Assembly (NCBI GenBank): GCA_022264855.1
Contig: JABYQU010000060.1
Location: forward strand, 1 to 64,000
Direction: 5' to 3'
Source of the DNA: Lenzites betulinus
Lineage: Eukaryota; Basidiomycota; Agaricomycetes; Polyporales; Polyporaceae
DNA: 64,000 bases
Part shown: piece by piece, positions 1,269 to 40,965 of the stretch
Layout: the number at the start of each line of letters is the position of its first letter
How positions within the stretch are numbered: the first letter of the stretch is position 1
Notes under the pieces: generated by a model
Told to the model about the DNA's origin: nothing
Databases searched by the model: none
Seen by the model: the letters and a program-made list of their open reading frames with translations, nothing else
Made by a program: the position numbers and the translations under genes

Positions 1269-1308
1269 ATCACAGCCCTTGTGGTACATACTAACAGAGT
1301 TCAATATT

Positions 1309-3409: not shown

Positions 3410-3537
3410 TGAGCCTGGTTAGCTTCACGAGGCGGCGACATTGTGCGCCAGACTATAGTCCTCCAAACACGGCACGTATGTCCATAGTATACTCTACCCA
3501 CATCTCCTTGTGTGACATAGTAGTATAGCGACGCGAC

Positions 3538-3771
3538 GGTGATACACCCCGCACCGAGCCAACGCCCGCGACCTGTTCTTTTCGCGGTTTCCGCAAGTCC
3601 AAGGGCTCCAGCATGCGGAGGGCTCATCGCAGCATAGGGGCCTTGTCCGTGTGCGGACGGCTTATCGCGCGGTATCGCAAGGGCATGGGCCGGTCCGTCG
3701 GGGCGCGAGGGTACGTTCCGCATTTACGCGTTGGCGGTCGGCGCATCGCGGCCTCGATCCCCTTCGCGATG
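3538..3771 (-). repeat. Right terminal inverted repeat, inner segment
   Basis: Reverse complement of about 1003-1268. It ends at 3771 in cgatg, where the solo LTR was inserted. It lacks the 36-base block present in the left arm. Confidence 0.75.
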
Positions 3772-4327: not shown

Positions 4328-4850
4328 CGATGGACCTTCCGTAGAGACTTTCTGATGGCGTCGGACGTGCGGACACTCCCTGTAAATACCTACGCCCTCG
4401 GGCCGTGACAATTGAGGTTCCCCCTTGGCTCAGAGCTTCATTTTCCCTCGAAGAACCCTGCGACGACCCTGCGATTAGCGAACTGCGAACTGCGAACTCT
4501 GCGAACTCTGCGAACTGCGAACCCTGCGAACCCTGCGATTAGCGTTTAGCGTTGTGATTGCGTGACGAGCCTTCTGCGATGCCGACACCGGCTACGAAGC
4601 GACCCTCCTGCATACCGTGGGAACGCCAGCTCAGTTGAGTCGTCGCCTACCTTCCGCCTGACCGTTACCACTCCCCTCCCTCCATGCTTCTCTGCGTACT
4701 GCTTCTCTGCGTACTGCACCGCCATAAGGGCACCCGACGCAAACCTAGCATCTCCTCGCGCTCCGCGAGACGTCTTCGCAGCCTGGTCTCGACCTTCTGG
4801 GCTCTCGACCGTCTCTTCCATCCGTCCTTACCGGTCGGTTGAGTGCATCA
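4328..4850 (-). repeat. Right terminal inverted repeat, outer segment
   Basis: Reverse complement of 483-1008, nearly perfect, including the inverted ttcgcag array. Together with 3538-3771 it makes the full right arm of the element. Confidence 0.8.
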
Positions 4851-5443: not shown

Positions 5444-6300
5444 GAGTTGTATACATCAGTTGTTGCAACATTCTAGGTGTAATAAATAGCGGTAGTTGCA
5501 ACTTCGGCGGTTTAAGGCCAAATAGGCGCCGTGTGGCACAGCCACTGACGCGCGAGACGCGGGCGCCTATCTGCAGTTGCAGTCACGGCGAGGTGGGCGT
5601 CTATTGTAGTTGCAGCCACGAAAAGAACACGCAGCCAGCGGAATTGAACACCGGACCTGCTGCAAAAGCCTATAAGTAAGAGTGATACACATAAACCACT
5701 CAGCCACAGAGCTGTACAATCTCAAGGCTGTCCACGGTACTAGTTCTGATACATTTCCCCAGCTACTAATGGCACCCCCAGTTACTCTAAGTCCTCACGC
5801 AGTGCCAAGCTTCAGCAAGATGTCAGATTCCAGTGATATAAATGGACCACTCGGCCACAGAACTGTACACCCTATAGGAGTATATATGGTACTAGTGTCC
5901 ATCCATTCCTTTGGCTACTAACAGCATTATAAGTCCTTATGCAGCATCAAGATCCGGTAAGGACTTGGAGTACCATTAGTAGCTGGGGAAATCCATCAGA
6001 ACTAGTACCGTGGACAGCCTTGAGATTGTACAGCTCTGTGGCTGAGTGGTTTATGTGTATCACTCTTACTTATAGGCTTTTGCAGCAGGTCCGGTGTTCA
6101 ATTCCGCTGGCTGCGTGTTCTTTTCGTGGCTGCAACTACAATAGACGCCCACCTCGCCGTGACTGCAACTGCAGATAGGCGCCCGCGTCTCGCGCGTCAG
6201 TGGCTGTGCCACACGGCGCCTATTTGGCCTTAAACCGCCGAAGTTGCAACTACCGCTATTTATTACACCTAGAATGTTGCAACAACTGATGTATACTCTA
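5444..6300. mobile_element. 857-bp foldback MITE, hAT-like, with 8-bp target duplication
   Basis: Two arms of about 325 bp (5449-5770 and 5975-6296) are almost perfect reverse complements around a ~200-bp spacer, so a single strand folds into one long hairpin. CGCTCAAG flanks it at 5436-5443 and 6301-6308. The ends on the transposase strand read TAGAGTATACATCAG and (G)AGTTGTATACATCAG. An 8-bp duplication and TAG-like ends suit the hAT superfamily. It has no coding capacity. It lies near the C-terminus of the Plavaka transposase, after the IDDIVGALER segment. Confidence 0.8.
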
Positions 6301-18458: not shown

Positions 18459-20773
18459 TCAAACTAACGTAGCGGCTTTCCTGTACATTTCCAGCACGGT
18501 GCTGAAGTCGAGTTGCTTGTCAGGCGGCCAGTGGTGGTCGGGCTCGTCTTCCGAGAAGGGCTCGTCCTCCGCACTGACTTGGCCCTCTCCGTTGGCTTTT
18601 TGCGACCCTTTTTCTTCTTCACGCTCGGGCTCGTCCGCGCCGAGCTCGCCCCCTCCGCTGTCTTTTTGTGGCTCGGCCTCTTCTTCCTGATCGGCCCCTT
18701 CTTCCTGCGCGTCCTCTTCGTCCAGCTCGGGCTCCTCGTCCGCATCGACATCCATCCTACTCTCCTCGTCCGAGCCGCTCGAGCTGTCCCAGCTCGACTC
18801 ATCCGAACTGTACCTGACCCGCTCCTCCCGCTCCTCCCACTCCTCATTCTCCTCCTCCCCCTCCTCCCCCTCCTCCTCCTCCTCGAAAAAAAACGAACCC
18901 GAGTCATCCACATCGTCGTCCTCGAACCCCAACGACGGGAACTCATCGAGATGCACGCCCCCGTCCGGCACGAGCGCCTCCCTTGTCTGCCTCACGCGCG
19001 TGTCCAGCATGCGCACGTACCGGCACTCCTCCCCCCGCAGCGGCGTCTCCGGCGCGCAGAGCAGCGGGAGGTCCACGGGCCTCGGCATCGTGCTGATGCT
19101 GCTGCTGATGAGCGCCATCTCGAGCAGGAGCACGCGGCGCACGAGCGGGTACGGGTGCGCGACGTTCCAGTCGTGCAGCTGCGACAGCTCCGCCGCGCGG
19201 CGCAGCGACGGGAGCCACCAGTCGAGATACTTGAGTGCGAGCTGCTTCGCGAACGGGTGCGGGGGCGGCCCGAGCAGCGGGAGCTGGAGGAAGAAGACCC
19301 AGGGCGGGAGCACGAGGTGTTCGACGAGCGGGCAGAGGTCGAATATGGCCTCGGTGGCGGATATGGTCTCTCCCTGGTCGGCGGGGGACACCCAGGAGGA
19401 GCGTCGGGGGTAGAGGTTCAGATAGGTGAGGCGGCGGCCGTGGGCTTGGAGGAACCCGACGGGGATGCGGGAGGTCTCGATGGTGGTGAGCCGCTGCAGG
19501 AGGGGCATCTTCCACGCCGCCGTGGTACAGTCCACAAATCGGGTGTCGGAGACAGGTATATACAGGTCCGTGAGCCGCGGCAGGTCTACAACGGGTTGAA
19601 GGACGAGCGTGTCCCCCTCGCTCAACACTCGTTGTACGGACAACAGCTTGAGGGTCTCCAGGTTCTTCATCCCAGACAGCATATCGTGGAGGTGGGCGGC
19701 CTGGCTGTAAGACAGCGTGAACGCGAGATCGAGCACGCGCAGCGTCGACAGACGGTCCCGATACGCGAGCTGGAACGGCGCGGGCTGCGGGTCGACAAAC
19801 CACTGCGAGAAAAACGTCCCGCTATACTCCTCCGCCGGCGTATGCCGCAGGGGCACAGCGAACCCGTCCGCGATGTGGAACTCGAACACCCGCAGCGCCG
19901 TGCACAGCGCGAAAATAACGGCCAGCGCCTCGCGCACCGCGTCCGCGCACGCCCACACAATAATGCACTTGTCCAGCCGGATGCTCTTGATGAGCGTGGC
20001 GAGGCCGCGGTGGTTCCCCGGGCGGCGCTGGTCGCCCGCGAGCATCGCCGCGAGGGCAACGACCTGGCCCATGCGCCGGAGCACAATGTCCTCGTACAGC
20101 TGCTCCGTCGCGGGCGCGACCCAGTGCTTGCACACCAGCGTGAGCGCCTTGCGGAAGCGGAAGTCCGCCAGCCACGCGCTGTGCGTGCTCTGCATGACGG
20201 AGGGGTCCCGGTCGAAGCGCGGCGCGCGGGCCTCGCGAAATATGGCGAGCAGCACCTCGTGCGGGAAGCGCGTGTTGCCTGGGTACGCCGGCTGCTGGAA
20301 GTACGTCGGTCCCGGTAGGCACTGCAATGCAACGCAACGGTGCGGCTGTCAGTGCCGGTCGACGGTGTGGTGAGTTTCAGGAATAGCCTACGCCGCTCTG
20401 TTCCATAAAATACTTGACTGCGCCTTTCAGCGCCGCTTGTTCCTTTCGTAACGTATGCATTTCCTGGCGGACGAGTTATCAGCAAGTACTGCTCTCAGCG
20501 CGCAATCCGATCCTCTGTCATTGATCAGCGCGATGAACCGCTACTAACCACTTTGACGCGTTCCAGGACCCGTTTTTCCTCTCTCAGGTAGGCAGCCTCC
20601 GTGCGAAGGGAGGACAGCTCCTCCGCGATGCCTATAAGCGGGCGCGCAACGAGCTCCTTGAGCACAGACGCGTCCTCCAGGGCTCGCCCGTCGTCCGCCG
20701 ACGCGCCCTCCGCAGCCACGACTGGCAGATTTGGAGTGGCCTGGGACGGCGACTGCGCCAGGCTCGAGTCCAT
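18459..20773 (-). CDS. Coiled-coil F-box protein with acidic tail
   Basis: Likely a substrate adaptor of an SCF ubiquitin ligase. Exon 1 (from ATG 20773) starts MDSSLAQSPSQ and runs into a heptad-rich coiled coil (ELSSLRTEAAYLREEKRVLE). A 24-codon exon (EMHTLRKEQAALKGA...) follows. An intron with donor gtaggc and branch cactgac then leads to the large exon from 20321. There the F-box reads FPHEVLLAIFREA, followed by KALTLVCKHWVAPATEQLYE and LRR-like segments (LRVLDLAF, NLETLKLL, LPRLTDLYIP, RLTYLNLYP). The last ~150 residues are extremely acidic (EEEEEGEEGEE). Predicted length is about 719 residues. Coiled coil plus F-box is a common Agaricomycete plan. This is the intact parent of the two 5' fragments in the tandem array, and a transposon sits 76 bp upstream of its start. 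Confidence 0.75.
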
Positions 20774-20849
20774 GGGTGCTGTTCAAGTCGACGACTTCCG
20801 AGCCGACAGTGGCACAATATTGGAATTCGGAGAGCGGACTGTGGCGCCT

Positions 20850-21178
20850 CAGGCTCCTACCCACCCGCGGCTTCGAGTTGGGGGGGGGCGGATTCAGGTG
20901 GGAGGGGATGGGCTGAATCGAGGAGGTAGAGGATGAAGTTCAAGCCAGGTGGCAATAGATCAGGTTACGTCCGAGAATGATGCACGTGCTAAGTCATATA
21001 ACCGAGTGTCCCCCCGCCCAACTCTCAGCAGCGGCTGGCAGCAAACACGAGTAAATACACGGAGCCCGGACAGAGAGCGCCCAGCACCCTCCCCATTTGG
21101 AAGGCGGGCCACCGAGGCGCCCAAGGTATTATCAGTGTATTCTCAACGCAGGCGAGTTTCTGTCTGCCGCTTTAGGGA
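20850..21178 (+). repeat. Left terminal inverted repeat, copy 1
   Basis: It matches the reverse complement of 26779-27092. The outer ~67 bp and the inner ~190 bp are nearly identical between the two ends. A middle block of about 80 bp (about 20920-20995) differs between left and right. Confidence 0.85.
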
Positions 21179-21240
21179 AGCAAGTAGCGTGCCGAGCTCG
21201 CGCGAGCAGCGTGCCTTGAACTCGTTGTTCTCCCACCACC

Positions 21241-23984
21241 ATGGACCCCCACCGCGCCCATTTAATCCAGCAAACTCTACTATATCTACAATCTAGCGGT
21301 ATCCTGCTCTCCGAGCTCATCTTGTATGCCTTACAGCAATATCATGACCCTTCCCATCCAATCCTCCGTGATCTAGTCGTCCATACCACCAGCATCGCCG
21401 CTGCATTATACCACCAGGAGGCGACTACGAATCAGCTCTGTTCGTGGGCTCACCAACTCGCCTGCATACGGTATGGAAATGCTATGCACAAGTTAACACT
21501 GCGCGAGAACGGGTGGCACTTCAACGCCGCGCAAACCCATCCGGATCAGCTGCGTGATTTCCGAATCGAAGACATGGTTGTAGGGATGTACCGCAGGGCG
21601 GGTGAGCTGTGGGGCCTTTTCCAGGCCATGATGGGCTTCAAGCCTGGTGATTTGCCCCCGGTCGAGGCCGAGACCGTGCTGGATGAGGACGATCTGGACG
21701 CGGAGTACTGGGGTGCAACCACAACGGAGCTAGAAGAGAAGAAGGCAAAGCAAGCGAAATTCGTCAATATTGTACGTCCACTACGCATCTCACCATTAGA
21801 AACCCGCTGACCCATTGACCTGTTAACAGAAAATCGCCGTGATCTTGAGTATTCTTGCGCAAGGGCGAGATCCGCGCTGCAACGCCCTCCAAAGTATTGT
21901 CGGGATTTTCTGCCATGCCTGCAACGCTCCCGAAAAACTTGTAAAAGTTCTCTCTAAGATGGGGGTCTCGGTCTCACTCAAGTCCGTGCATCGCGCTATC
22001 ATTTCCCTATCTCACAAGAGCTCTGAGAGCATCGAAGAGCTCGGAGCCACTCTCCTCGCCTCAATTGGGTTCGACAACTTCGATCAGCTCCTTAAGGCTT
22101 TGGTTGCCACCGTCGATGATCCCCGTGCACGGGGGATGCTCCACATGGCGTCCGGAACGCTACTCCGCCTCGACCATGGCGTCACACTCGAAGACCTCCG
22201 GTGTTCGCGTCTTATCTGGGCGCGATCTGAATTTAATACACTTAGCCCCGATCGCTGCCTGTTTGATCCAACAGCCACCCTCGAACATCTGCTCTTCTTG
22301 CACCCTGAGACGAACGCCGAGGGTTCGTTGTCGCGGCGCGGTCAGTTTCGTTCTTGGATGTTCCAGCGCACCCTGGTCAAACACGGCCCGGAATTCTTTG
22401 AGAAGTACGCCGCTGAGCTCTCGGAGCCATCTCCCGTCGATCAAATCCCTGTCACAACGCTGTACCAGGTGCCGCTCCGTGCGATGGACATCAACCTTTC
22501 GACCGTGTCCGGTAATATTGAGGCCATCGAGAATATGTTCCGGCAGGCAGGCATCGGCGATCCGAGCATCCCAGGCCAGTCCCGCATGGCTGAGGACATA
22601 TCGGAGTTCGTCACGCTGGTTCACGGTGATCTGGGCACGTTTGAGCGAGTTCTAACAGCACGCCGGCGTCGTTCTGTTGAGCATACGCCGTTTGATCGCC
22701 TTCAGTCGGTGGTCTTTGTCATGGGCCTCTTTCATGTCAAGATGGCGGCTGCAGACACTATCTGGCGCGTCTTTGTGACCCCGGATGGTGCTCGGAGGGA
22801 TCCATTAGGCTTTTATAAACTCGCCGCCAGACTCCGCCCAAACGACAGTAACCATCTCATCTCGAACGCCAAATTTCGCGAGCAGCACGAGCTCATCGGG
22901 GACGTCGGCAATGTGCTCCGGCTCAATGTGTGGGAGGTTGAGGTCAAACGGCGCACTCGTTTGTCCCTCGCACAGTGGGCTGCAAAAAAGCCGACCCTTT
23001 CCGAAGTCCAGGAAATTGCGGATTATATTGCATTGCGTTACGTCGAAGGGGACGGTATGGATCTCTATGACGACTGGCTTGAACGAGTAGGAGGCCCCGG
23101 GAGTCAGGATCAAGTCTATGCAAACACTCGCAGAATTCACAATCTTCTTCTTCTCTACGAGGAGTTGTCATACGCAATGAATGCCGGGGACATTGGGCGT
23201 GTGGAAACACTCCTGCCTGCATGGATTCCATTATTCCGTGCTGTGGGGAAACACAAGTATGGATCGCGTACGTTACGCTTTATGCATTCCTTGTATTTTG
23301 TTTATCCCGAACGTTTACGGTGAGTCGCTATCCGACACGAGAGCAACATTAGAGAACTTATTTTTCGCTTTGAAGGCGTGCCATACGGTATAATATTCTT
23401 GTGAATCCAACTGGCAAGCCAAACGAGTTTCGAGCCGTTGACTGGATCGTTGAGTTCCTTAACCTCCTTATCAAGGTTAGCAGGGCAGGCTCGGGGTTGT
23501 ATTATCTGAACTGATTAGAGTATAGTACTTCTACGGTGGCGAAGGCTCTAACTACACGAAGGAGCGGATCTTACTCGAGTCGGTGCTAGTCCTGATCTAT
23601 CGTAACGTCCACAAAACTATGGAGCGCAACTTTGCACTGCCCGGAATTACAATAGCGCACGGACAACCAAATATGCAGGCGACATTCAAGGCCGTATTAG
23701 CAGCTATCGTAGCGGAGGGGGAGAAGGGTCCAAACGAGTATGTACGAGGGCGTCGTGCACCGTATGTACTGCCGGACTCGATTAGTGATGGTGTAAGTAT
23801 ACTCAAGGCGGAGGGGCTGAAGAAGGCGCAGACACAGGAGAGGGGCACTGATCAGGGAGACGTGGAGATGGGGGAGGCAGAGGGTGATGGGGAACAGGCG
23901 GCGGAGGCGGAGGATGAGGAAGCGCAGCTTGAAGGTGGGCTGGGACTAACGGTGGACGACTTGAGCACGGAAGGGTGGCTTTAG
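21241..23984 (+). CDS. DUF6589 protein, candidate DDE transposase (copy 1)
   Basis: Four exons (21241-21771, 21830-23319, 23376-23475, 23526-23984) give about 859 residues. Landmarks in order: a helical N-terminus (MDPHRAHLIQQTLLYLQ), an acidic linker, then IGFDNFDQLL, PLRAMDINLSTVSGNIEAIE, VTLVHGDLGTFERVL, VVFVMGLFHVKMAAADT, VNPTGKPNEFRAVDWIVEFL and FYGGEGSNYTKERILLESV. The tail is Glu/Ala-rich. This order (FDN, HGD, FH, NPTG) is that of fungal DUF6589 proteins, whose function is not established. The FDN and HGD aspartates followed by a helical region resemble an RNase-H-fold DDE transposase; that is inference. It is the only non-helicase gene between the inverted repeats. No signal peptide or membrane segment. 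Confidence 0.8.
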
Positions 23985-26754
23985 TTGATGTAATAGATGC
24001 ACTTACTTTCTCCGACGCGAAGAACGATGCGGCGGACAGGCCGATCCGCAAACAGGGTGTCCAATGGGCAGTACGGGCGGACGGCAGTGACACTCGATGT
24101 CGTGACGCCAGTGGACGGGCCGGCGGCGTTCGAAATGGTATGCGCACCCATTGTGTCGTTGAGCGAGCTGTTCGGCTGCGCATTCTCCTTGTCGCGGCGC
24201 TCGCGCATCGTCTCGCTGTAGTTGGGACACATTTTATTTGTGCGTATATGGCCCGTCGCGTTGCATGCGCTGCACTTGCGCGGCGCGGCGACTCTCTTAG
24301 CAGCGGCCAGAGGCCCGGCAGCTGCCGCATCGGTGGGGTTGACGGGCGTATCTTGCAGAGGGTCGCGGGAGACCTGTGGCTCGACCGTTTGTGGATAGAT
24401 ACTAAAAGTAATGTCCCGCACGCAGTGGTTAGTACAAGGATTAAATACATATGGTTGATAACACGTACCTGTTCACCACGCACAATACCTCCTCGCCCAG
24501 TTTGGTTGCCAAATCCCACTTGGTTTCGCGAAAGAGGTTGGCTACTGATGTGAGCTTGCGGGCGCGCGCGCAATCAACGATACGCTTGAGTGTGTCATTG
24601 GGCATGATGTATGATGCACCTAGGTTATTGAGGTGCGCGCGGCCGTACTTTGCGAGCATTTTCTCTCGCCGGAGGGCGTTGAGCGCGGCATGGAGTTCGA
24701 TGTCCTGGCTGTCCATTGTATACTTTGCAGCAACCTTCGATGCACGAGGGGCGGTAGCGGTCGCGGCGGGAGCGTCGGAGGTGGGAAATACGGAGAGGAG
24801 AAGGCTGTAGTGCGGGGAGCAGAGAGAGCAGCAGGGGCCAGAGGAGGGGGGAGGAGTGAAGCAGCGTGCACAACAGACTTCGGTATCAGGAACTATTATG
24901 TAAGATGTAAACAACCCAAGTCAGGACTATTAAACCAAACGAGCACCTACCAATTCTGTCGTTCTCGTAGAAAGCGGTGATAGGCTTACGATAACACTTC
25001 GCGGGACGTGATGCGGCGTTAATCAAGCTATCTAGTTCTGCTGAGATCTGAGCAGCCTCTTTCGTCTTCTTCTGTTTCGCTCCTCTCTCGCCTGGCTCGT
25101 CTGCTGCCTCCCGCGACTGGGAATACTCCACACGCAGGCTTTCGTACACAGTCAATGGAGGAGGCCGCGCAACTTCGTCTCCACTCGGGCTGCTGTTTTG
25201 CCGATCTGGTACCTCGCCACCGCCTGCCGATGCCTGCAATTCGACATCACCCCCATCCCCCTCTGCTGGCCCCTCCGATGATTGCACCGGCACGTCGACG
25301 CGAGACGTTCTGATGGCCAAAGAGCCACCTTCGGCAGGGCTGGGGCCAGGAGCGGCCGTCGAGGTCCGTGTCTTCTTCCCATTTCCTGCTCTCCCACTTC
25401 CTGCCCCCGTCGTTGTATCCGCCCGCTTACGCTTGCTTGCCTCCTTCTGAGATGCCTTCCGAGCATCCGCGTCTCTCCGCTTCTGAGCGCGCGCCATCGC
25501 CGAAGCCTTCTCGTCATCGAAGTACTTCGGTTCAACAAGAAGGACTGCAAGTCCCTCCATCCCGGAGCCTCGAGCTGCCCGGCCGAAACGTTGCCAGAGC
25601 GCATCGAGATCGCAGGTTGCCTTCCACTGCACCACGATCTCAATGCTTGGTATGTCAACGCCCTGAAATCTACTTAGCATACTACACAGGTGTAATTGTA
25701 TTAAATGTATATCTCACCATGCCAAACGAGTCTGTACAAAACAGTCCCAAAATGTTATGCTCTCGGAACGCCTCGGTGGTCTGCTCCCGAAAGCGCGATG
25801 TATTGTCCGAATTGAACCAAACAATACGGTCGGAATATTCACGTGGGAGACGCTTGCGCAGAGCCTCGGTCGCGTTGATCGAGTCCTCGATATTATCGAA
25901 AAAGACTACGAAAGGACGAATGCGCATTTGAGGTGTCCAGCCGTCGGGAATGAGAAAGTCGAGATCGCGATAGCTGGACACCGCATACTGCATCTTCCGC
26001 ACAGTCAGGAATACGTTCGGACGGTCGTTAGACCTGCGGATATACAGCATGCGGTCCCGCCGTGCTTGGACGATCGAAATGACATCCGTCGACACAGACT
26101 TGGTGAACGTGGCAGATGGCATCAGATAGGGAACCCTGGGCGGAAGCATGTTCCGCAGATTACCGGACTCCGCGAGCGACGGGCGAAACGATCCCCAAGC
26201 TTTGATGCAATGAGCTTCATCCCATACGACGCTTACCAGCCGCGAGGTGAACTTCGCATTCCTCCATAGCCAGTCGAAGGACAATTTATTCTTGAATGCG
26301 ACTTCAGGATTAAGCATCACGGCCCCGTGAGGGAGAGTAGCCGCTGCCTAATGGATAGTTAACTTGGGAATGAACATTAATGTGAAATCAGATTCAAACG
26401 GCGCACCCTAAAACTGTCCACATTTGCGTTCTCGCCCGAAATGGCCAATGCACGAATACCGAGGGCATCCAACTGTTGCCTGTTCTGGCTGCCGAGGAGA
26501 TTGAGCGGGGTGATGACCAGCTGAATGCCTTCAGGCCGGAACAGGAGGGGAATCCAGAATGTTAATGTCTTGCCAGAACCCGTGGCTGAGACACAGACAA
26601 TATCATTGTCCCCCTTCAACACTGCGAGCGCAACCTCACATTGCCAGAGGCACGGCTCTCGACCGAGCTTCTCCGCCGTCCTACGCCTGATCTCCGGGAT
26701 ATCAGGAAGGTCGGCGGGGGCAGGAGCGGCGCCCGACTCTCCCACTGTCGACAT
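23981..26754 (-). CDS. RecQ-like DNA helicase with zinc-knuckle tail (copy 1)
   Basis: An ATP-dependent 3'-5' type DNA helicase by family. ATG is at 26754 (MSTVGESG). Motifs in order: Q-like LWQCEVALAVLKG, Walker A SATGSGKTLTFW, TPLNLLGSQNRQQL, Walker B VVWDEAHCIKAWGSF, PSATF, FNSDNTSRFREQTTEAF, CTDSFGM / GVDIP across an intron, and motif VI WQRFGRAARG. A basic linker follows (RKASQKEASKRKRAD). Next come a Cys cluster (VCCARC...CCSLC) matching the RecQ zinc-binding position and, after more introns, a CSACNATGHIRTNKMCP knuckle that resembles the TAF1-type zinc knuckle. The stop TAA (23983-23981) overlaps the DUF6589 stop. It likely acts with the DUF6589 protein in movement of the element. Confidence 0.85.
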
Positions 26755-26778
26755 GTGCACACGAAGTGCTGGGCCTTC

Positions 26779-27092
26779 CTAAAGCGGCAGACAGAAACTC
26801 GCCTGCGTTGAGAATACACTGATAATACCTTGGGCGCCTCGGTGGCCCGCCTTCCAAATGGGGAGGGTGCTGGGCGCTCTCTGTCCGGGCTCCGTGTATT
26901 TACTCGTGTTTGCTGCCAGCCGCTGCTGAGAGTTGGGCGGGGGGACACTCGGTTAATAGGATTGAGCACGTGCATCATTACTGGGATCTAGCGCTGTCTA
27001 CGTATCTTGAACAAGACCTATTCCCTCCCTCCTCGATCCAGCCCATCCCCTCCCACCTGAATCCGCCCCCCCCCAACTCGAAGCCGCGGGTG
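26779..27092 (-). repeat. Right terminal inverted repeat, copy 1 (clipped)
   Basis: Reverse complement of 20850-21178 except for the ~80-bp variant block. It ends at gccgcgggtg, ~14 bp short of the full terminus, joined directly to F-box exon 3. Confidence 0.85.
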
Positions 27093-27705
27093 AAGTCCGC
27101 CAGCCACGCGCTGTGCGTGCTCTGCATGACGGAGGGGTCCCGGTCGAAGCGCGGCGCGCGGGCCTCGCGAAATATGGCGAGCAGCACCTCGTGCGGGAAG
27201 CGCGTGTTGCCTGGGTACGCCGGCTGCTGGAAGTACGTCGGTCCCGGTAGGCACTGCAATGCAACGCAACGGTGCGGCTGTCAGTGCCGGTCGACGGTGT
27301 GGTGAGTTTCAGGAATAGCCTACGCCGCTCTGTTCCATAAAATACTTGACTGCGCCTTTCAGCGCCGCTTGTTCCTTTCGTAACGTATGCATTTCCTGGC
27401 GGACGAGTTATCAGCAAGTACTGCTCTCAGCGCGCAATCCGATCCTCTGTCATTGATCAGCGCGATGAACCGCTACTAACCACTTTGACGCGTTCCAGGA
27501 CCCGTTTTTCCTCTCTCAGGTAGGCAGCCTCCGTGCGAAGGGAGGACAGCTCCTCCGCGATGCCTATAAGCGGGCGCGCAACGAGCTCCTTGAGCACAGA
27601 CGCGTCCTCCAGGGCTCGCCCGTCGTCCGCCGACGCGCCCTCCGCAGCCACGACTGGCAGATTTGGAGTGGCCTGGGACGGCGACTGCGCCAGGCTCGAG
27701 TCCAT
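26978..27705 (-). pseudogene. Chimeric 5' fragment of the F-box gene fused to transposon end (copy 2)
   Basis: Exons 1 and 2 and the first 161 bp of exon 3 are intact, so the coiled coil and the F-box core (FPHEVLLAIFREA) remain. After WLADF the frame passes into the inverted repeat and adds TRGFELGGGGFRWEGMG and about 20 more residues before a stop at 26978. The LRR-like body and acidic tail are lost. The 5' sequence is unchanged for the 76 bp up to the next transposon copy, so transcription is possible but would depend on transposon sequence. Confidence 0.7.
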
Positions 27706-28172
27706 GGGTGCTGTTCAAGTCGACGACTTCCGAGCCGACAGTGGCACAATATTGGAATTCGGAGAGCGGACTGTGGCGCCTCAGGCTCCTACCCACCCGC
27801 GGCTTCGAGTTGGGGGGGGGCGGATTCAGGTGGGAGGGGATGGGCTGAATCGAGGAGGTAGAGGATGAAGTTCAAGCCAGGTGGCAATAGATCAGGTTAC
27901 GTCCGAGAATGATGCACGTGCTAAGTCATATAACCGAGTGTCCCCCCGCCCAACTCTCAGCAGCGGCTGGCAGCAAACACGAGTAAATACACGGAGCCCG
28001 GACAGAGAGCGCCCAGCACCCTCCCCATTTGGAAGGCGGGCCACCGAGGCGCCCAAGGTATTATCAGTGTATTCTCAACGCAGGCGAGTTTCTGTCTGCC
28101 GCTTTAGGGAAGCAAGTAGCGTGCCGAGCTCGCGCGAGCAGCGTGCCTTGAACTCGTTGTTCTCCCACCACC

Positions 28173-30916
28173 ATGGACCCCCACCGCGCCCATTTAATCC
28201 AGCAAACTCTACTATATCTACAATCTAGCGGTATCCTGCTCTCCGAGCTCATCTTGTATGCCTTACAGCAATATCATGACCCTTCCCATCCAATCCTCCG
28301 TGATCTAGTCGTCCATACCACCAGCATCGCCGCTGCATTATACCACCAGGAGGCGACTACGAATCAGCTCTGTTCGTGGGCTCACCAACTCGCCTGCATA
28401 CGGTATGGAAATGCTATGCACAAGTTAACACTGCGCGAGAACGGGTGGCACTTCAACGCCGCGCAAACCCATCCGGATCAGCTGCGTGATTTCCGAATCG
28501 AAGACATGGTTGTAGGGATGTACCGCAGGGCGGGTGAGCTGTGGGGCCTTTTCCAGGCCATGATGGGCTTCAAGCCTGGTGATTTGCCCCCGGTCGAGGC
28601 CGAGACCGTGCTGGATGAGGACGATCTGGACGCGGAGTACTGGGGTGCAACCACAACGGAGCTAGAAGAGAAGAAGGCAAAGCAAGCGAAATTCGTCAAT
28701 ATTGTACGTCCACTACGCATCTCACCATTAGAAACCCGCTGACCCATTGACCTGTTAACAGAAAATCGCCGTGATCTTGAGTATTCTTGCGCAAGGGCGA
28801 GATCCGCGCTGCAACGCCCTCCAAAGTATTGTCGGGATTTTCTGCCATGCCTGCAACGCTCCCGAAAAACTTGTAAAAGTTCTCTCTAAGATGGGGGTCT
28901 CGGTCTCACTCAAGTCCGTGCATCGCGCTATCATTTCCCTATCTCACAAGAGCTCTGAGAGCATCGAAGAGCTCGGAGCCACTCTCCTCGCCTCAATTGG
29001 GTTCGACAACTTCGATCAGCTCCTTAAGGCTTTGGTTGCCACCGTCGATGATCCCCGTGCACGGGGGATGCTCCACATGGCGTCCGGAACGCTACTCCGC
29101 CTCGACCATGGCGTCACACTCGAAGACCTCCGGTGTTCGCGTCTTATCTGGGCGCGATCTGAATTTAATACACTTAGCCCCGATCGCTGCCTGTTTGATC
29201 CAACAGCCACCCTCGAACATCTGCTCTTCTTGCACCCTGAGACGAACGCCGAGGGTTCGTTGTCGCGGCGCGGTCAGTTTCGTTCTTGGATGTTCCAGCG
29301 CACCCTGGTCAAACACGGCCCGGAATTCTTTGAGAAGTACGCCGCTGAGCTCTCGGAGCCATCTCCCGTCGATCAAATCCCTGTCACAACGCTGTACCAG
29401 GTGCCGCTCCGTGCGATGGACATCAACCTTTCGACCGTGTCCGGTAATATTGAGGCCATCGAGAATATGTTCCGGCAGGCAGGCATCGGCGATCCGAGCA
29501 TCCCAGGCCAGTCCCGCATGGCTGAGGACATATCGGAGTTCGTCACGCTGGTTCACGGTGATCTGGGCACGTTTGAGCGAGTTCTAACAGCACGCCGGCG
29601 TCGTTCTGTTGAGCATACGCCGTTTGATCGCCTTCAGTCGGTGGTCTTTGTCATGGGCCTCTTTCATGTCAAGATGGCGGCTGCAGACACTATCTGGCGC
29701 GTCTTTGTGACCCCGGATGGTGCTCGGAGGGATCCATTAGGCTTTTATAAACTCGCCGCCAGACTCCGCCCAAACGACAGTAACCATCTCATCTCGAACG
29801 CCAAATTTCGCGAGCAGCACGAGCTCATCGGGGACGTCGGCAATGTGCTCCGGCTCAATGTGTGGGAGGTTGAGGTCAAACGGCGCACTCGTTTGTCCCT
29901 CGCACAGTGGGCTGCAAAAAAGCCGACCCTTTCCGAAGTCCAGGAAATTGCGGATTATATTGCATTGCGTTACGTCGAAGGGGACGGTATGGATCTCTAT
30001 GACGACTGGCTTGAACGAGTAGGAGGCCCCGGGAGTCAGGATCAAGTCTATGCAAACACTCGCAGAATTCACAATCTTCTTCTTCTCTACGAGGAGTTGT
30101 CATACGCAATGAATGCCGGGGACATTGGGCGTGTGGAAACACTCCTGCCTGCATGGATTCCATTATTCCGTGCTGTGGGGAAACACAAGTATGGATCGCG
30201 TACGTTACGCTTTATGCATTCCTTGTATTTTGTTTATCCCGAACGTTTACGGTGAGTCGCTATCCGACACGAGAGCAACATTAGAGAACTTATTTTTCGC
30301 TTTGAAGGCGTGCCATACGGTATAATATTCTTGTGAATCCAACTGGCAAGCCAAACGAGTTTCGAGCCGTTGACTGGATCGTTGAGTTCCTTAACCTCCT
30401 TATCAAGGTTAGCAGGGCAGGCTCGGGGTTGTATTATCTGAACTGATTAGAGTATAGTACTTCTACGGTGGCGAAGGCTCTAACTACACGAAGGAGCGGA
30501 TCTTACTCGAGTCGGTGCTAGTCCTGATCTATCGTAACGTCCACAAAACTATGGAGCGCAACTTTGCACTGCCCGGAATTACAATAGCGCACGGACAACC
30601 AAATATGCAGGCGACATTCAAGGCCGTATTAGCAGCTATCGTAGCGGAGGGGGAGAAGGGTCCAAACGAGTATGTACGAGGGCGTCGTGCACCGTATGTA
30701 CTGCCGGACTCGATTAGTGATGGTGTAAGTATACTCAAGGCGGAGGGGCTGAAGAAGGCGCAGACACAGGAGAGGGGCACTGATCAGGGAGACGTGGAGA
30801 TGGGGGAGGCAGAGGGTGATGGGGAACAGGCGGCGGAGGCGGAGGATGAGGAAGCGCAGCTTGAAGGTGGGCTGGGACTAACGGTGGACGACTTGAGCAC
30901 GGAAGGGTGGCTTTAG
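28173..30916 (+). CDS. DUF6589 protein, candidate DDE transposase (copy 2)
   Basis: Same four-exon structure and protein as the copy at 21241, shifted by 6932 bp; no difference seen. All landmarks (FDN, HGD, GLFHVKM, NPTGKPNEF, YGGEGSNYTKER) are present and the frame is intact. Confidence 0.8.
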
Positions 30917-33686
30917 TTGATGTAATAGATGCACTTACTTTCTCCGACGCGAAGAACGATGCGGCGGACAGGCCGATCCGCAAACAGGGTGTCCAATGGG
31001 CAGTACGGGCGGACGGCAGTGACACTCGATGTCGTGACGCCAGTGGACGGGCCGGCGGCGTTCGAAATGGTATGCGCACCCATTGTGTCGTTGAGCGAGC
31101 TGTTCGGCTGCGCATTCTCCTTGTCGCGGCGCTCGCGCATCGTCTCGCTGTAGTTGGGACACATTTTATTTGTGCGTATATGGCCCGTCGCGTTGCATGC
31201 GCTGCACTTGCGCGGCGCGGCGACTCTCTTAGCAGCGGCCAGAGGCCCGGCAGCTGCCGCATCGGTGGGGTTGACGGGCGTATCTTGCAGAGGGTCGCGG
31301 GAGACCTGTGGCTCGACCGTTTGTGGATAGATACTAAAAGTAATGTCCCGCACGCAGTGGTTAGTACAAGGATTAAATACATATGGTTGATAACACGTAC
31401 CTGTTCACCACGCACAATACCTCCTCGCCCAGTTTGGTTGCCAAATCCCACTTGGTTTCGCGAAAGAGGTTGGCTACTGATGTGAGCTTGCGGGCGCGCG
31501 CGCAATCAACGATACGCTTGAGTGTGTCATTGGGCATGATGTATGATGCACCTAGGTTATTGAGGTGCGCGCGGCCGTACTTTGCGAGCATTTTCTCTCG
31601 CCGGAGGGCGTTGAGCGCGGCATGGAGTTCGATGTCCTGGCTGTCCATTGTATACTTTGCAGCAACCTTCGATGCACGAGGGGCGGTAGCGGTCGCGGCG
31701 GGAGCGTCGGAGGTGGGAAATACGGAGAGGAGAAGGCTGTAGTGCGGGGAGCAGAGAGAGCAGCAGGGGCCAGAGGAGGGGGGAGGAGTGAAGCAGCGTG
31801 CACAACAGACTTCGGTATCAGGAACTATTATGTAAGATGTAAACAACCCAAGTCAGGACTATTAAACCAAACGAGCACCTACCAATTCTGTCGTTCTCGT
31901 AGAAAGCGGTGATAGGCTTACGATAACACTTCGCGGGACGTGATGCGGCGTTAATCAAGCTATCTAGTTCTGCTGAGATCTGAGCAGCCTCTTTCGTCTT
32001 CTTCTGTTTCGCTCCTCTCTCGCCTGGCTCGTCTGCTGCCTCCCGCGACTGGGAATACTCCACACGCAGGCTTTCGTACACAGTCAATGGAGGAGGCCGC
32101 GCAACTTCGTCTCCACTCGGGCTGCTGTTTTGCCGATCTGGTACCTCGCCACCGCCTGCCGATGCCTGCAATTCGACATCACCCCCATCCCCCTCTGCTG
32201 GCCCCTCCGATGATTGCACCGGCACGTCGACGCGAGACGTTCTGATGGCCAAAGAGCCACCTTCGGCAGGGCTGGGGCCAGGAGCGGCCGTCGAGGTCCG
32301 TGTCTTCTTCCCATTTCCTGCTCTCCCACTTCCTGCCCCCGTCGTTGTATCCGCCCGCTTACGCTTGCTTGCCTCCTTCTGAGATGCCTTCCGAGCATCC
32401 GCGTCTCTCCGCTTCTGAGCGCGCGCCATCGCCGAAGCCTTCTCGTCATCGAAGTACTTCGGTTCAACAAGAAGGACTGCAAGTCCCTCCATCCCGGAGC
32501 CTCGAGCTGCCCGGCCGAAACGTTGCCAGAGCGCATCGAGATCGCAGGTTGCCTTCCACTGCACCACGATCTCAATGCTTGGTATGTCAACGCCCTGAAA
32601 TCTACTTAGCATACTACACAGGTGTAATTGTATTAAATGTATATCTCACCATGCCAAACGAGTCTGTACAAAACAGTCCCAAAATGTTATGCTCTCGGAA
32701 CGCCTCGGTGGTCTGCTCCCGAAAGCGCGATGTATTGTCCGAATTGAACCAAACAATACGGTCGGAATATTCACGTGGGAGACGCTTGCGCAGAGCCTCG
32801 GTCGCGTTGATCGAGTCCTCGATATTATCGAAAAAGACTACGAAAGGACGAATGCGCATTTGAGGTGTCCAGCCGTCGGGAATGAGAAAGTCGAGATCGC
32901 GATAGCTGGACACCGCATACTGCATCTTCCGCACAGTCAGGAATACGTTCGGACGGTCGTTAGACCTGCGGATATACAGCATGCGGTCCCGCCGTGCTTG
33001 GACGATCGAAATGACATCCGTCGACACAGACTTGGTGAACGTGGCAGATGGCATCAGATAGGGAACCCTGGGCGGAAGCATGTTCCGCAGATTACCGGAC
33101 TCCGCGAGCGACGGGCGAAACGATCCCCAAGCTTTGATGCAATGAGCTTCATCCCATACGACGCTTACCAGCCGCGAGGTGAACTTCGCATTCCTCCATA
33201 GCCAGTCGAAGGACAATTTATTCTTGAATGCGACTTCAGGATTAAGCATCACGGCCCCGTGAGGGAGAGTAGCCGCTGCCTAATGGATAGTTAACTTGGG
33301 AATGAACATTAATGTGAAATCAGATTCAAACGGCGCACCCTAAAACTGTCCACATTTGCGTTCTCGCCCGAAATGGCCAATGCACGAATACCGAGGGCAT
33401 CCAACTGTTGCCTGTTCTGGCTGCCGAGGAGATTGAGCGGGGTGATGACCAGCTGAATGCCTTCAGGCCGGAACAGGAGGGGAATCCAGAATGTTAATGT
33501 CTTGCCAGAACCCGTGGCTGAGACACAGACAATATCATTGTCCCCCTTCAACACTGCGAGCGCAACCTCACATTGCCAGAGGCACGGCTCTCGACCGAGC
33601 TTCTCCGCCGTCCTACGCCTGATCTCCGGGATATCAGGAAGGTCGGCGGGGGCAGGAGCGGCGCCCGACTCTCCCACTGTCGACAT
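30913..33686 (-). CDS. RecQ-like DNA helicase with zinc-knuckle tail (copy 2)
   Basis: Same protein and exon pattern as the copy at 23981-26754. Walker A, DEAH, motif VI, Cys cluster and zinc knuckle are all intact. The stop codon again overlaps that of the DUF6589 gene at 30914-30916. Confidence 0.85.
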
Positions 33687-33929
33687 GTGCACACGAAGTG
33701 CTGGGCCTTCCTAAAGCGGCAGACAGAAACTCGCCTGCGTTGAGAATACACTGATAATACCTTGGGCGCCTCGGTGGCCCGCCTTCCAAATGGGGAGGGT
33801 GCTGGGCGCTCTCTGTCCGGGCTCCGTGTATTTACTCGTGTTTGCTGCCAGCCGCTGCTGAGAGTTGGGCGGGGGGACACTCGGTTAATAGGATTGAGCA
33901 CGTGCATCATTACTGGGATCTAGCGCTGT

Positions 33930-34636
33930 CTACGTATCTTGAACAAGACCTATTCCCTCCCTCCTCGATCCAGCCCATCCCCTCCCACCTGAATCCGCCC
34001 CCCCCAACTCGAAGCCGCGGGTGAAGTCCGCCAGCCACGCGCTGTGCGTGCTCTGCATGACGGAGGGGTCCCGGTCGAAGCGCGGCGCGCGGGCCTCGCG
34101 AAATATGGCGAGCAGCACCTCGTGCGGGAAGCGCGTGTTGCCTGGGTACGCCGGCTGCTGGAAGTACGTCGGTCCCGGTAGGCACTGCAATGCAACGCAA
34201 CGGTGCGGCTGTCAGTGCCGGTCGACGGTGTGGTGAGTTTCAGGAATAGCCTACGCCGCTCTGTTCCATAAAATACTTGACTGCGCCTTTCAGCGCCGCT
34301 TGTTCCTTTCGTAACGTATGCATTTCCTGGCGGACGAGTTATCAGCAAGTACTGCTCTCAGCGCGCAATCCGATCCTCTGTCATTGATCAGCGCGATGAA
34401 CCGCTACTAACCACTTTGACGCGTTCCAGGACCCGTTTTTCCTCTCTCAGGTAGGCAGCCTCCGTGCGAAGGGAGGACAGCTCCTCCGCGATGCCTATAA
34501 GCGGGCGCGCAACGAGCTCCTTGAGCACAGACGCGTCCTCCAGGGCTCGCCCGTCGTCCGCCGACGCGCCCTCCGCAGCCACGACTGGCAGATTTGGAGT
34601 GGCCTGGGACGGCGACTGCGCCAGGCTCGAGTCCAT
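33930..34636 (-). pseudogene. Chimeric 5' fragment of the F-box gene fused to transposon end (copy 3)
   Basis: As the fragment at 26978-27705, but the C-run one base shorter shifts the transposon-encoded tail, which reads TRGFELGGADSGGRGWAG and stops at 33930. Coiled coil and F-box core are kept; the substrate-binding part is missing. Confidence 0.7.
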
Positions 34637-35103
34637 GGGTGCTGTTCAAGTCGACGACTTCCGAGCCGACAGTGGCACAATATTGGAATTCGGAGAGCGG
34701 ACTGTGGCGCCTCAGGCTCCTACCCACCCGCGGCTTCGAGTTGGGGGGGGGCGGATTCAGGTGGGAGGGGATGGGCTGAATCGAGGAGGTAGAGGATGAA
34801 GTTCAAGCCAGGTGGCAATAGATCAGGTTACGTCCGAGAATGATGCACGTGCTAAGTCATATAACCGAGTGTCCCCCCGCCCAACTCTCAGCAGCGGCTG
34901 GCAGCAAACACGAGTAAATACACGGAGCCCGGACAGAGAGCGCCCAGCACCCTCCCCATTTGGAAGGCGGGCCACCGAGGCGCCCAAGGTATTATCAGTG
35001 TATTCTCAACGCAGGCGAGTTTCTGTCTGCCGCTTTAGGGAAGCAAGTAGCGTGCCGAGCTCGCGCGAGCAGCGTGCCTTGAACTCGTTGTTCTCCCACC
35101 ACC

Positions 35104-37846
35104 ATGGACCCCCACCGCGCCCATTTAATCCAGCAAACTCTACTATATCTACAATCTAGCGGTATCCTGCTCTCCGAGCTCATCTTGTATGCCTTACAGC
35201 AATATCATGACCCTTCCCATCCAATCCTCCGTGATCTAGTCGTCCATACCACCAGCATCGCCGCTGCATTATACCACCAGGAGGCGACTACGAATCAGCT
35301 CTGTTCGTGGGCTCACCAACTCGCCTGCATACGGTATGGAAATGCTATGCACAAGTTAACACTGCGCGAGAACGGGTGGCACTTCAACGCCGCGCAAACC
35401 CATCCGGATCAGCTGCGTGATTTCCGAATCGAAGACATGGTTGTAGGGATGTACCGCAGGGCGGGTGAGCTGTGGGGCCTTTTCCAGGCCATGATGGGCT
35501 TCAAGCCTGGTGATTTGCCCCCGGTCGAGGCCGAGACCGTGCTGGATGAGGACGATCTGGACGCGGAGTACTGGGGTGCAACCACAACGGAGCTAGAAGA
35601 GAAGAAGGCAAAGCAAGCGAAATTCGTCAATATTGTACGTCCACTACGCATCTCACCATTAGAAACCCGCTGACCCATTGACCTGTTAACAGAAAATCGC
35701 CGTGATCTTGAGTATTCTTGCGCAAGGGCGAGATCCGCGCTGCAACGCCCTCCAAAGTATTGTCGGGATTTTCTGCCATGCCTGCAACGCTCCCGAAAAA
35801 CTTGTAAAAGTTCTCTCTAAGATGGGGGTCTCGGTCTCACTCAAGTCCGTGCATCGCGCTATCATTTCCCTATCTCACAAGAGCTCTGAGAGCATCGAAG
35901 AGCTCGGAGCCACTCTCCTCGCCTCAATTGGGTTCGACAACTTCGATCAGCTCCTTAAGGCTTTGGTTGCCACCGTCGATGATCCCCGTGCACGGGGGAT
36001 GCTCCACATGGCGTCCGGAACGCTACTCCGCCTCGACCATGGCGTCACACTCGAAGACCTCCGGTGTTCGCGTCTTATCTGGGCGCGATCTGAATTTAAT
36101 ACACTTAGCCCCGATCGCTGCCTGTTTGATCCAACAGCCACCCTCGAACATCTGCTCTTCTTGCACCCTGAGACGAACGCCGAGGGTTCGTTGTCGCGGC
36201 GCGGTCAGTTTCGTTCTTGGATGTTCCAGCGCACCCTGGTCAAACACGGCCCGGAATTCTTTGAGAAGTACGCCGCTGAGCTCTCGGAGCCATCTCCCGT
36301 CGATCAAATCCCTGTCACAACGCTGTACCAGGTGCCGCTCCGTGCGATGGACATCAACCTTTCGACCGTGTCCGGTAATATTGAGGCCATCGAGAATATG
36401 TTCCGGCAGGCAGGCATCGGCGATCCGAGCATCCCAGGCCAGTCCCGCATGGCTGAGGACATATCGGAGTTCGTCACGCTGGTTCACGGTGATCTGGGCA
36501 CGTTTGAGCGAGTTCTAACAGCACGCCGGCGTCGTTCTGTTGAGCATACGCCGTTTGATCGCCTTCAGTCGGTGGTCTTTGTCATGGCCTCTTTCATGTC
36601 AAGATGGCGGCTGCAGACACTATCTGGCGCGTCTTTGTGACCCCGGATGGTGCTCGGAGGGATCCATTAGGCTTTTATAAACTCGCCGCCAGACTCCGCC
36701 CAAACGACAGTAACCATCTCATCTCGAACGCCAAATTTCGCGAGCAGCACGAGCTCATCGGGGACGTCGGCAATGTGCTCCGGCTCAATGTGTGGGAGGT
36801 TGAGGTCAAACGGCGCACTCGTTTGTCCCTCGCACAGTGGGCTGCAAAAAAGCCGACCCTTTCCGAAGTCCAGGAAATTGCGGATTATATTGCATTGCGT
36901 TACGTCGAAGGGGACGGTATGGATCTCTATGACGACTGGCTTGAACGAGTAGGAGGCCCCGGGAGTCAGGATCAAGTCTATGCAAACACTCGCAGAATTC
37001 ACAATCTTCTTCTTCTCTACGAGGAGTTGTCATACGCAATGAATGCCGGGGACATTGGGCGTGTGGAAACACTCCTGCCTGCATGGATTCCATTATTCCG
37101 TGCTGTGGGGAAACACAAGTATGGATCGCGTACGTTACGCTTTATGCATTCCTTGTATTTTGTTTATCCCGAACGTTTACGGTGAGTCGCTATCCGACAC
37201 GAGAGCAACATTAGAGAACTTATTTTTCGCTTTGAAGGCGTGCCATACGGTATAATATTCTTGTGAATCCAACTGGCAAGCCAAACGAGTTTCGAGCCGT
37301 TGACTGGATCGTTGAGTTCCTTAACCTCCTTATCAAGGTTAGCAGGGCAGGCTCGGGGTTGTATTATCTGAACTGATTAGAGTATAGTACTTCTACGGTG
37401 GCGAAGGCTCTAACTACACGAAGGAGCGGATCTTACTCGAGTCGGTGCTAGTCCTGATCTATCGTAACGTCCACAAAACTATGGAGCGCAACTTTGCACT
37501 GCCCGGAATTACAATAGCGCACGGACAACCAAATATGCAGGCGACATTCAAGGCCGTATTAGCAGCTATCGTAGCGGAGGGGGAGAAGGGTCCAAACGAG
37601 TATGTACGAGGGCGTCGTGCACCGTATGTACTGCCGGACTCGATTAGTGATGGTGTAAGTATACTCAAGGCGGAGGGGCTGAAGAAGGCGCAGACACAGG
37701 AGAGGGGCACTGATCAGGGAGACGTGGAGATGGGGGAGGCAGAGGGTGATGGGGAACAGGCGGCGGAGGCGGAGGATGAGGAAGCGCAGCTTGAAGGTGG
37801 GCTGGGACTAACGGTGGACGACTTGAGCACGGAAGGGTGGCTTTAG
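35104..37846 (+). pseudogene. DUF6589 gene, copy 3, frameshifted
   Basis: Identical to the other copies except that GGG becomes GG near 36587 (catggcctc against catgggcctc). This shifts the frame right after FDRLQSVVFVM and ends the open frame at 36640. The rest of the gene is unchanged downstream (36604-37185 is open in the original frame). A homopolymer sequencing error would look the same, so real loss of function is uncertain. Confidence 0.75.
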
Positions 37847-40615
37847 TTGATGTAATAGATGCACTTACTTTCTCCGACGCGAAGAACGATGCGGCGGACA
37901 GGCCGATCCGCAAACAGGGTGTCCAATGGGCAGTACGGGCGGACGGCAGTGACACTCGATGTCGTGACGCCAGTGGACGGGCCGGCGGCGTTCGAAATGG
38001 TATGCGCACCCATTGTGTCGTTGAGCGAGCTGTTCGGCTGCGCATTCTCCTTGTCGCGGCGCTCGCGCATCGTCTCGCTGTAGTTGGGACACATTTTATT
38101 TGTGCGTATATGGCCCGTCGCGTTGCATGCGCTGCACTTGCGCGGCGCGGCGACTCTCTTAGCAGCGGCCAGAGGCCCGGCAGCTGCCGCATCGGTGGGG
38201 TTGACGGGCGTATCTTGCAGAGGGTCGCGGGAGACCTGTGGCTCGACCGTTTGTGGATAGATACTAAAAGTAATGTCCCGCACGCAGTGGTTAGTACAAG
38301 GATTAAATACATATGGTTGATAACACGTACCTGTTCACCACGCACAATACCTCCTCGCCCAGTTTGGTTGCCAAATCCCACTTGGTTTCGCGAAAGAGGT
38401 TGGCTACTGATGTGAGCTTGCGGGCGCGCGCGCAATCAACGATACGCTTGAGTGTGTCATTGGGCATGATGTATGATGCACCTAGGTTATTGAGGTGCGC
38501 GCGGCCGTACTTTGCGAGCATTTTCTCTCGCCGGAGGGCGTTGAGCGCGGCATGGAGTTCGATGTCCTGGCTGTCCATTGTATACTTTGCAGCAACCTTC
38601 GATGCACGAGGGGCGGTAGCGGTCGCGGCGGGAGCGTCGGAGGTGGGAAATACGGAGAGGAGAAGGCTGTAGTGCGGGGAGCAGAGAGAGCAGCAGGGGC
38701 CAGAGGAGGGGGGAGGAGTGAAGCAGCGTGCACAACAGACTTCGGTATCAGGAACTATTATGTAAGATGTAAACAACCCAAGTCAGGACTATTAAACCAA
38801 ACGAGCACCTACCAATTCTGTCGTTCTCGTAGAAAGCGGTGATAGGCTTACGATAACACTTCGCGGGACGTGATGCGGCGTTAATCAAGCTATCTAGTTC
38901 TGCTGAGATCTGAGCAGCCTCTTTCGTCTTCTTCTGTTTCGCTCCTCTCTCGCCTGGCTCGTCTGCTGCCTCCCGCGACTGGGAATACTCCACACGCAGG
39001 CTTTCGTACACAGTCAATGGAGGAGGCCGCGCAACTTCGTCTCCACTCGGGCTGCTGTTTTGCCGATCTGGTACCTCGCCACCGCCTGCCGATGCCTGCA
39101 ATTCGACATCACCCCATCCCCCTCTGCTGGCCCCTCCGATGATTGCACCGGCACGTCGACGCGAGACGTTCTGATGGCCAAAGAGCCACCTTCGGCAGGG
39201 CTGGGGCCAGGAGCGGCCGTCGAGGTCCGTGTCTTCTTCCCATTTCCTGCTCTCCCACTTCCTGCCCCCGTCGTTGTATCCGCCCGCTTACGCTTGCTTG
39301 CCTCCTTCTGAGATGCCTTCCGAGCATCCGCGTCTCTCCGCTTCTGAGCGCGCGCCATCGCCGAAGCCTTCTCGTCATCGAAGTACTTCGGTTCAACAAG
39401 AAGGACTGCAAGTCCCTCCATCCCGGAGCCTCGAGCTGCCCGGCCGAAACGTTGCCAGAGCGCATCGAGATCGCAGGTTGCCTTCCACTGCACCACGATC
39501 TCAATGCTTGGTATGTCAACGCCCTGAAATCTACTTAGCATACTACACAGGTGTAATTGTATTAAATGTATATCTCACCATGCCAAACGAGTCTGTACAA
39601 AACAGTCCCAAAATGTTATGCTCTCGGAACGCCTCGGTGGTCTGCTCCCGAAAGCGCGATGTATTGTCCGAATTGAACCAAACAATACGGTCGGAATATT
39701 CACGTGGGAGACGCTTGCGCAGAGCCTCGGTCGCGTTGATCGAGTCCTCGATATTATCGAAAAAGACTACGAAAGGACGAATGCGCATTTGAGGTGTCCA
39801 GCCGTCGGGAATGAGAAAGTCGAGATCGCGATAGCTGGACACCGCATACTGCATCTTCCGCACAGTCAGGAATACGTTCGGACGGTCGTTAGACCTGCGG
39901 ATATACAGCATGCGGTCCCGCCGTGCTTGGACGATCGAAATGACATCCGTCGACACAGACTTGGTGAACGTGGCAGATGGCATCAGATAGGGAACCCTGG
40001 GCGGAAGCATGTTCCGCAGATTACCGGACTCCGCGAGCGACGGGCGAAACGATCCCCAAGCTTTGATGCAATGAGCTTCATCCCATACGACGCTTACCAG
40101 CCGCGAGGTGAACTTCGCATTCCTCCATAGCCAGTCGAAGGACAATTTATTCTTGAATGCGACTTCAGGATTAAGCATCACGGCCCCGTGAGGGAGAGTA
40201 GCCGCTGCCTAATGGATAGTTAACTTGGGAATGAACATTAATGTGAAATCAGATTCAAACGGCGCACCCTAAAACTGTCCACATTTGCGTTCTCGCCCGA
40301 AATGGCCAATGCACGAATACCGAGGGCATCCAACTGTTGCCTGTTCTGGCTGCCGAGGAGATTGAGCGGGGTGATGACCAGCTGAATGCCTTCAGGCCGG
40401 AACAGGAGGGGAATCCAGAATGTTAATGTCTTGCCAGAACCCGTGGCTGAGACACAGACAATATCATTGTCCCCCTTCAACACTGCGAGCGCAACCTCAC
40501 ATTGCCAGAGGCACGGCTCTCGACCGAGCTTCTCCGCCGTCCTACGCCTGATCTCCGGGATATCAGGAAGGTCGGCGGGGGCAGGAGCGGCGCCCGACTC
40601 TCCCACTGTCGACAT
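37843..40615 (-). pseudogene. RecQ-like helicase gene, copy 3, frameshifted
   Basis: Identical to the other copies except that one C is lost near 39113 (caccccatcc against cacccccatcc). This breaks the frame in the basic/acidic linker after motif VI. The helicase core would still be made, without the Cys cluster and zinc knuckle. As with the DUF6589 copy, a homopolymer error is an equal explanation. Confidence 0.75.
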
Positions 40616-40965
40616 GTGCACACGAAGTGCTGGGCCTTCCTAAAGCGGCAGACAGAAACTCGCCTGCGTTGAGAATACACTGATAATACCTTGGGCGCCT
40701 CGGTGGCCCGCCTTCCAAATGGGGAGGGTGCTGGGCGCTCTCTGTCCGGGCTCCGTGTATTTACTCGTGTTTGCTGCCAGCCGCTGCTGAGAGTTGGGCG
40801 GGGGGACACTCGGTTAATAGGATTGAGCACGTGCATCATTACTGGGATCTAGCGCTGTCTACGTATCTTGAACAAGACCTATTCCCTCCCTCCTCGATCC
40901 AGCCCATCCCCTCCCACCTGAATCCGCCCCCCCCCAACTCGAAGCCGCGGGTGGGTAGGAGCCTG

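Follow-up and report, generated by a model that had tools for sequence, protein, structure and literature searches.

Positions 34713-40965 of a 64,000-nucleotide stretch of the Lenzites betulinus genome (GCA_022264855.1, contig JABYQU010000060.1, positions 1-64,000 of the forward strand; hereafter the window) hold what we read, with a probability of about 0.83, as an AcademH-type DNA transposon that moves by cut and paste, in which a DUF6589 protein is the transposase and a RecQ-like helicase is an accessory protein. The inverted ends, the two genes and their pairing, the recurrence of the ends and the target-site duplications at other copies are observed; the transposase assignment draws on the predicted fold of a homolog. 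In the proposed mechanism, the DUF6589 protein would bind the ~330-bp inverted ends and excise the element, and would then join it to the target with cuts staggered by 9 bp, which would generate 9-bp target-site duplications.

The element is bounded by an inverted repeat of ~330 bp whose arms are 91% identical (blastn, E 1.6e-126), with tips CAGGCTCCTACCCAC, starting at 34713, and GTGGGTAGGAGCCTG, finishing at 40965. Complementarity between the ends reaches 95% over the outer 85 bp and 99% over an inner block of 183 bp, with a gapped, diverged stretch separating them. The interior is filled by two tail-to-tail genes, a match to DUF6589 (PF20231) on the + strand and, on the − strand, a DEAD/Helicase_C protein with RecQ-like scores and a zinc knuckle at the C terminus. 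The element belongs to the last of three tandem units; both of its gene frames are disrupted by one-base length differences, whereas both genes are open in unit 2. The splice sites were read on unit 2 and the unit 3 gene landmarks mapped across from there. The features are as follows.

34713..35043, + strand: left terminal inverted repeat of unit 3, with tip CAGGCTCCT; the DUF6589 start follows shortly after its inner 183-bp block (34862-35044)
35104..37846, + strand: DUF6589 gene of unit 3, exons 35104-35634, 35693-37181, 37238-37337 and 37388-37846; frame disrupted near 36586, where a homopolymer differs by one base from its length in units 1 and 2
37843..40615, − strand: helicase gene of unit 3, five exons, encoding a cysteine cluster and a zinc knuckle at the C terminus; a one-base difference in a homopolymer disrupts the frame near 39112
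40636..40965, − strand: right terminal inverted repeat of unit 3, tip complete, finishing GGAGCCTG
28173..30916, + strand: unit 2 copy of the DUF6589 gene, frame open, 859 amino acids, three GT-AG introns
30913..33686, − strand: unit 2 copy of the helicase gene, frame open, 844 amino acids, exons 33686-33339, 33279-32650, 32594-31883, 31824-31401 and 31333-30913, the four introns all GT-AG

In the spliced models of unit 2 the stop codons of the two genes overlap. The inner end block is ~60 bp from the start of DUF6589 and ~20 bp from that of the helicase, and since near-identical blocks thus abut both start codons, the ends likely also hold a shared promoter. Inverted ends around two convergent genes that fill the interior had been proposed in the original prediction, made from the same DNA, and this architecture is confirmed by blastn, the domain matches and the spliced models. 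Its coordinates and gene pair stand; it had overlooked the tandem array, the clipped right ends of units 1 and 2, and the two frame breaks.

That the ends recur elsewhere, a point on which the original prediction had made its case depend, is borne out in this genome, where the end sequences have 18 matches, six inside the array and 12 outside it, and where five loci carry perfect 9-bp duplications, two of them holding DUF6589 together with a helicase. These two are elements of 6469 and 6470 bp on contig C87, in opposite orientation and 3318 bp apart, with ends of ~315 bp (93%) whose first nine bases are those of the window element. Each pairs a helicase with DUF6589, the two set at opposite ends and tail to tail, with the exon pieces found open; each is flanked by a perfect 9-bp duplication of its own, and they differ from one another by one base in a G run. 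Near-identical copies 3.3 kb apart with intact duplications suggest recent local transposition, and they make the helicase's part in cut-and-paste transposition directly testable. Shorter relatives with related ends and perfect 9-bp duplications lie on C14, C31 and C26 (3.4, 1.6 and 0.26 kb); the one at C14:17128-20498 (L007/L008) is a 3.4-kb foldback with arms of 1568 bp, 99.9% identical, and the same terminal sequence.

Over seven insertions, the duplication scored 9/9 at five, 7/9 at C22 and 5/9 at the window array (C66). When lengths of 2-12 were compared at the five perfect loci, the full match appeared at length 9 alone, save for 2/2 at C26; at length 8, at most 3/8 positions matched across the six insertions outside the array. 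A scan of C87 at 8 and 10 bp returned 31 and 9 placements, of which the six listed at each length are palindromes paired across the inverted copies. C83 and C65 have one end only in the DNA examined, and weaker inner-end matches lie on C61 (two) and C21 (one). Copy number is low: two families with both genes were found and few copies besides, all counts being lower bounds.

Pairing of the two genes extends beyond the copies with recognizable ends. At seven of the nine DUF6589 sites found in this genome (a lower bound, with the array counted once) there is a helicase match within ~2.6 kb, the genes being convergent at C66, C87 (twice), C58 and C20 and divergent, head to head, at C64 and C14; C74 has no helicase in the match list, and at C1 the helicase is ~17 kb away. 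Four of these pairs are more diverged (C58:286431-293288, C20:26833-33603, C64:2550-10165 and C14:1-7119) and are possibly other lineages of such elements or decayed copies. In other mushrooms, for which the homolog lists come from two single-protein searches and a profile search and are again lower bounds, the two genes bear successive locus tags in four species: Trametes pubescens (13660/13661), Pleurotus ostreatoroseus (004312/004313), Trametes cinnabarina (scf184970 g97/g98) and Tricholoma furcatifolium (004012/004013, where the contig is 5.8 kb). The adjacency in other genomes that the original prediction had asked about is therefore present in four further species, besides the seven of nine sites here.

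Contig sharing was scored on 61 of 91 DUF6589 matches (one then skipped) and 75 of 112 helicase matches. At least 19 of 60 named DUF6589 proteins, from 15 species, are on the same contig as a helicase match, sharing being read by proxy from equal contig sizes; one of these contigs is just 8.5 kb, and the megabase contigs show linkage only. A mirror tree of 19 pairs, which included the window pair, dropped P0045/P0186 and preferred P0094 to P0102 for one T. polyzona contig, gave a distance correlation of r = 0.894, matched by none of 5000 permutations. Pairs near the ends of C14, C64 and C58, and a lone helicase match that starts C36, had suggested subtelomeric, telomere-linked helicases. This idea was dropped, as the contig-end stretches examined held at most one TTAGGG and no array of it; assembly breaks at repeats explain the contig-end positions equally well.

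The original prediction had cast DUF6589 as the transposase, and the predicted structure of a DUF6589 homolog lends support, resembling transposases that include, among the matches listed, Hermes, ISCth4 (which we take to be an IS256-type relative of MuDR), RAG1, P and Transib; a fold missing from that list is no evidence against that fold. In the alignments D259 and D444 are conserved, either D604 or E622 is the candidate for the third acidic residue (unit 2 numbering), and, by inspection, an invariant His sits in GxFH. We conclude that DUF6589 is likely a transposase of the RNase H-fold DDE/D class, with predicted catalytic activity. A search of solved structures by sequence with the DUF6589 profile gave one match, a chance one. 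A profile search from a divergent alignment (7999 candidates scored) recovered at least 30 proteins with E up to 1e-8; among the matches listed, all named proteins are from mushroom-forming fungi, and no Pfam domain was found beside DUF6589. In viral contigs, 110 pattern matches yielded no relative. For a family filed as unknown, a function can thus be proposed, under which the DUF6589 genes of these fungi count as candidate transposase genes and not as genes of the host.

An alignment of 70 helicases shows conservation of the Walker A residues, of D and E in the DEAH box, of a QRxGRxxR motif and of cysteines C549, C570, C571, C574, C584, C585 and C588, of which C549, C570, C571 and C574 presumably form a RecQ-type zinc site. 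The database helicase P0092 (495 amino acids) follows the frame-broken reading of unit 3. The helicase would be an accessory protein that travels with the element and probably acts by unwinding the ends or aiding repair at donor or target sites. The RecQ-like helicases found next to many DUF6589 genes would then be transposon passengers and not part of a host helicase expansion.

At the window locus the element is repeated with a period of 6929-6932 bp, in three units that show zero substitutions and differ solely in one-base homopolymer lengths.

20160..27091, + strand: tandem unit 1, host flank 20160-20849, element from 20850, right end minus its last 12 bp
27092..34022, + strand: tandem unit 2, host flank copy, element from 27782, both frames open, right end minus 12 bp
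34023..40953, + strand: tandem unit 3, the repeat stopping 12 bp before the element end at 40965

Units 1 and 2 differ only in the length of a C run in the right end, by one base. Each unit includes 690 bp of the left host flank, corresponding to the 5' portion of a gene judged F-box-like by inspection, without a Pfam match; 77 bp separate the presumed start codon of this gene from the element. eIF3h lies on the right side of the array. The right ends of units 1 and 2 break off 12 bp before the tip, where a copy of the left-hand host flank is joined on; only the right end of unit 3 is complete to the tip. At the junctions (window 27092 and 34023) the truncated 5' part of the F-box-like gene is fused to the transposon end, giving short chimeric open frames. 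The arrangement is best explained by tandem duplication after insertion, in which a single insertion just upstream of the F-box-like gene would afterwards have been amplified to three units. That the array is instead an assembly artefact of one insertion is a minority possibility that deserves some weight, and it would bear on the array only, not on the identity of the element. Differences confined to homopolymer lengths, with no substitutions, speak for such an artefact; against it, the same junction, with 12 bp of right end lost and 690 bp of flank added, occurs twice, and the complete right end occurs only in the last unit.

Two other inverted repeats lie in the window. At 483-4850 the arms are 523 bp and 100% identical (4.37 kb overall), and a duplication of at least 5 bp is absent within 6 bp of the ends; at 5449-6296 there is an 848-bp foldback with arms of 334 bp, 98.5% identical, and a GCTCAAG repeat just outside its ends.

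That the element is a single transposable unit, as originally predicted, is supported by the recurrence of the ends, the 9-bp duplications and the gene pairing. Several results weigh against its assignment as an AcademH-type transposon. Compared at 2-12 bp, the array flanks gave a best target-site duplication of 5/9, at length 9, and when the flanking 9-mers were sought in the opposite flank (at most one mismatch, both strands), the one match, with one mismatch, was 3 kb off on the other strand and unconvincing. A scan of the C58, C20, C64 and C14 pairs for 8-10 bp repeats with inverted tips found none in the DNA examined; an 81% inverted pair is present at C58, with no duplication on inspection. 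In the mirror tree, nearest neighbors agree in only 8 of 19 cases, and species history contributes to the correlation.

The strongest competitor on the nature of the element, though we consider it unlikely, is a separate helicase-carrying superfamily with a DUF6589 transposase, which would resemble AcademH in its helicase and duplication length and differ in its transposase. In its favor, none of the other Pfam transposase families matched in 61 DUF6589 homologs at E 0.1, and DUF6589 is not named in the literature searched; on the other side, AcademH, in the parts of the sources available, is likewise said to have a helicase, 9-bp duplications and low copy number in basidiomycetes. Similarly speculative is a fuller version, in which a DUF6589 superfamily distinct from AcademH would be marked by the GxFH signature, an obligate co-evolving RecQ partner and an activity that amplifies sites into flank-carrying arrays. 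A Mutator-like (MULE/MuDR) element with a captured helicase is improbable. Long inverted ends and 9-bp duplications are typical of MULE/MuDR. The element shares with that group these ends, its broad fold class, with ISCth4 among the best folds, and a duplication length of 9 bp, which falls within the 4-10 bp given for MuDR in the available portion of PMC10045372. The 61 homologs returned zero matches to MULE families at the same threshold, and the invariant His lies in GxFH, in place of the C/DxxH that the accessible text of PMC9587614 gives for the MuDR/hAT/P/Kolobok/Dada group. Chance neighborhood of DUF6589 and a helicase between unrelated inverted repeats, to which the sites without a close helicase (C74, C1) and the pairs without such ends (C58, C20, C64, C14) might be credited, can be set aside given the two whole two-gene units with their own duplications on C87 and the linkage and co-divergence of both genes in other species.

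Several described systems bear comparison with the DUF6589-helicase transposon. Kolobok elements duplicate TTAA; the duplications here are 9 bp. KolobokH, like the window element, places a RecQ helicase within a fungal DNA transposon, and the available sections of PMC9587614 describe it as a fungal Kolobok lineage with the helicase downstream of the transposase domain, naming one Kolobok whose helicase is encoded on the complementary strand. Here, by contrast, the helicase is a separate, convergent gene on the opposite strand, and the His lies in GxFH rather than in a C/DxxH between the second D and the last E. The hAT elements, to which Hermes belongs, usually duplicate 8 bp according to the portion of PMC12730594 available, not the 9 bp found here, and there was no hAT Pfam match in the 61 homologs. 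The accessible parts of PMC12730594, PMC8290104, PMC12210899, PMC10294476, PMC9970103 and PMC9674265 do not settle the kind of element. AcademH, a little-studied lineage, is the closest match. The original prediction knew of no named superfamily with such a pairing, which is probably wrong, given that the available text of PMC10045372 presents AcademH (Kojima 2020) as a helicase-encoding lineage of Academ with 9- or 10-bp duplications; that of PMC10799480 describes it as low-copy in Basidiomycota. The tandem triplication is a difference particular to the window locus. The C66 and C87 elements encode a helicase beside the likely transposase, five of the seven insertions, both C87 elements among them, have 9-bp duplications, and copy number is low in this basidiomycete; on these three likenesses we file the element with AcademH, a membership that is probable and is set by published descriptions rather than by transposase sequences.
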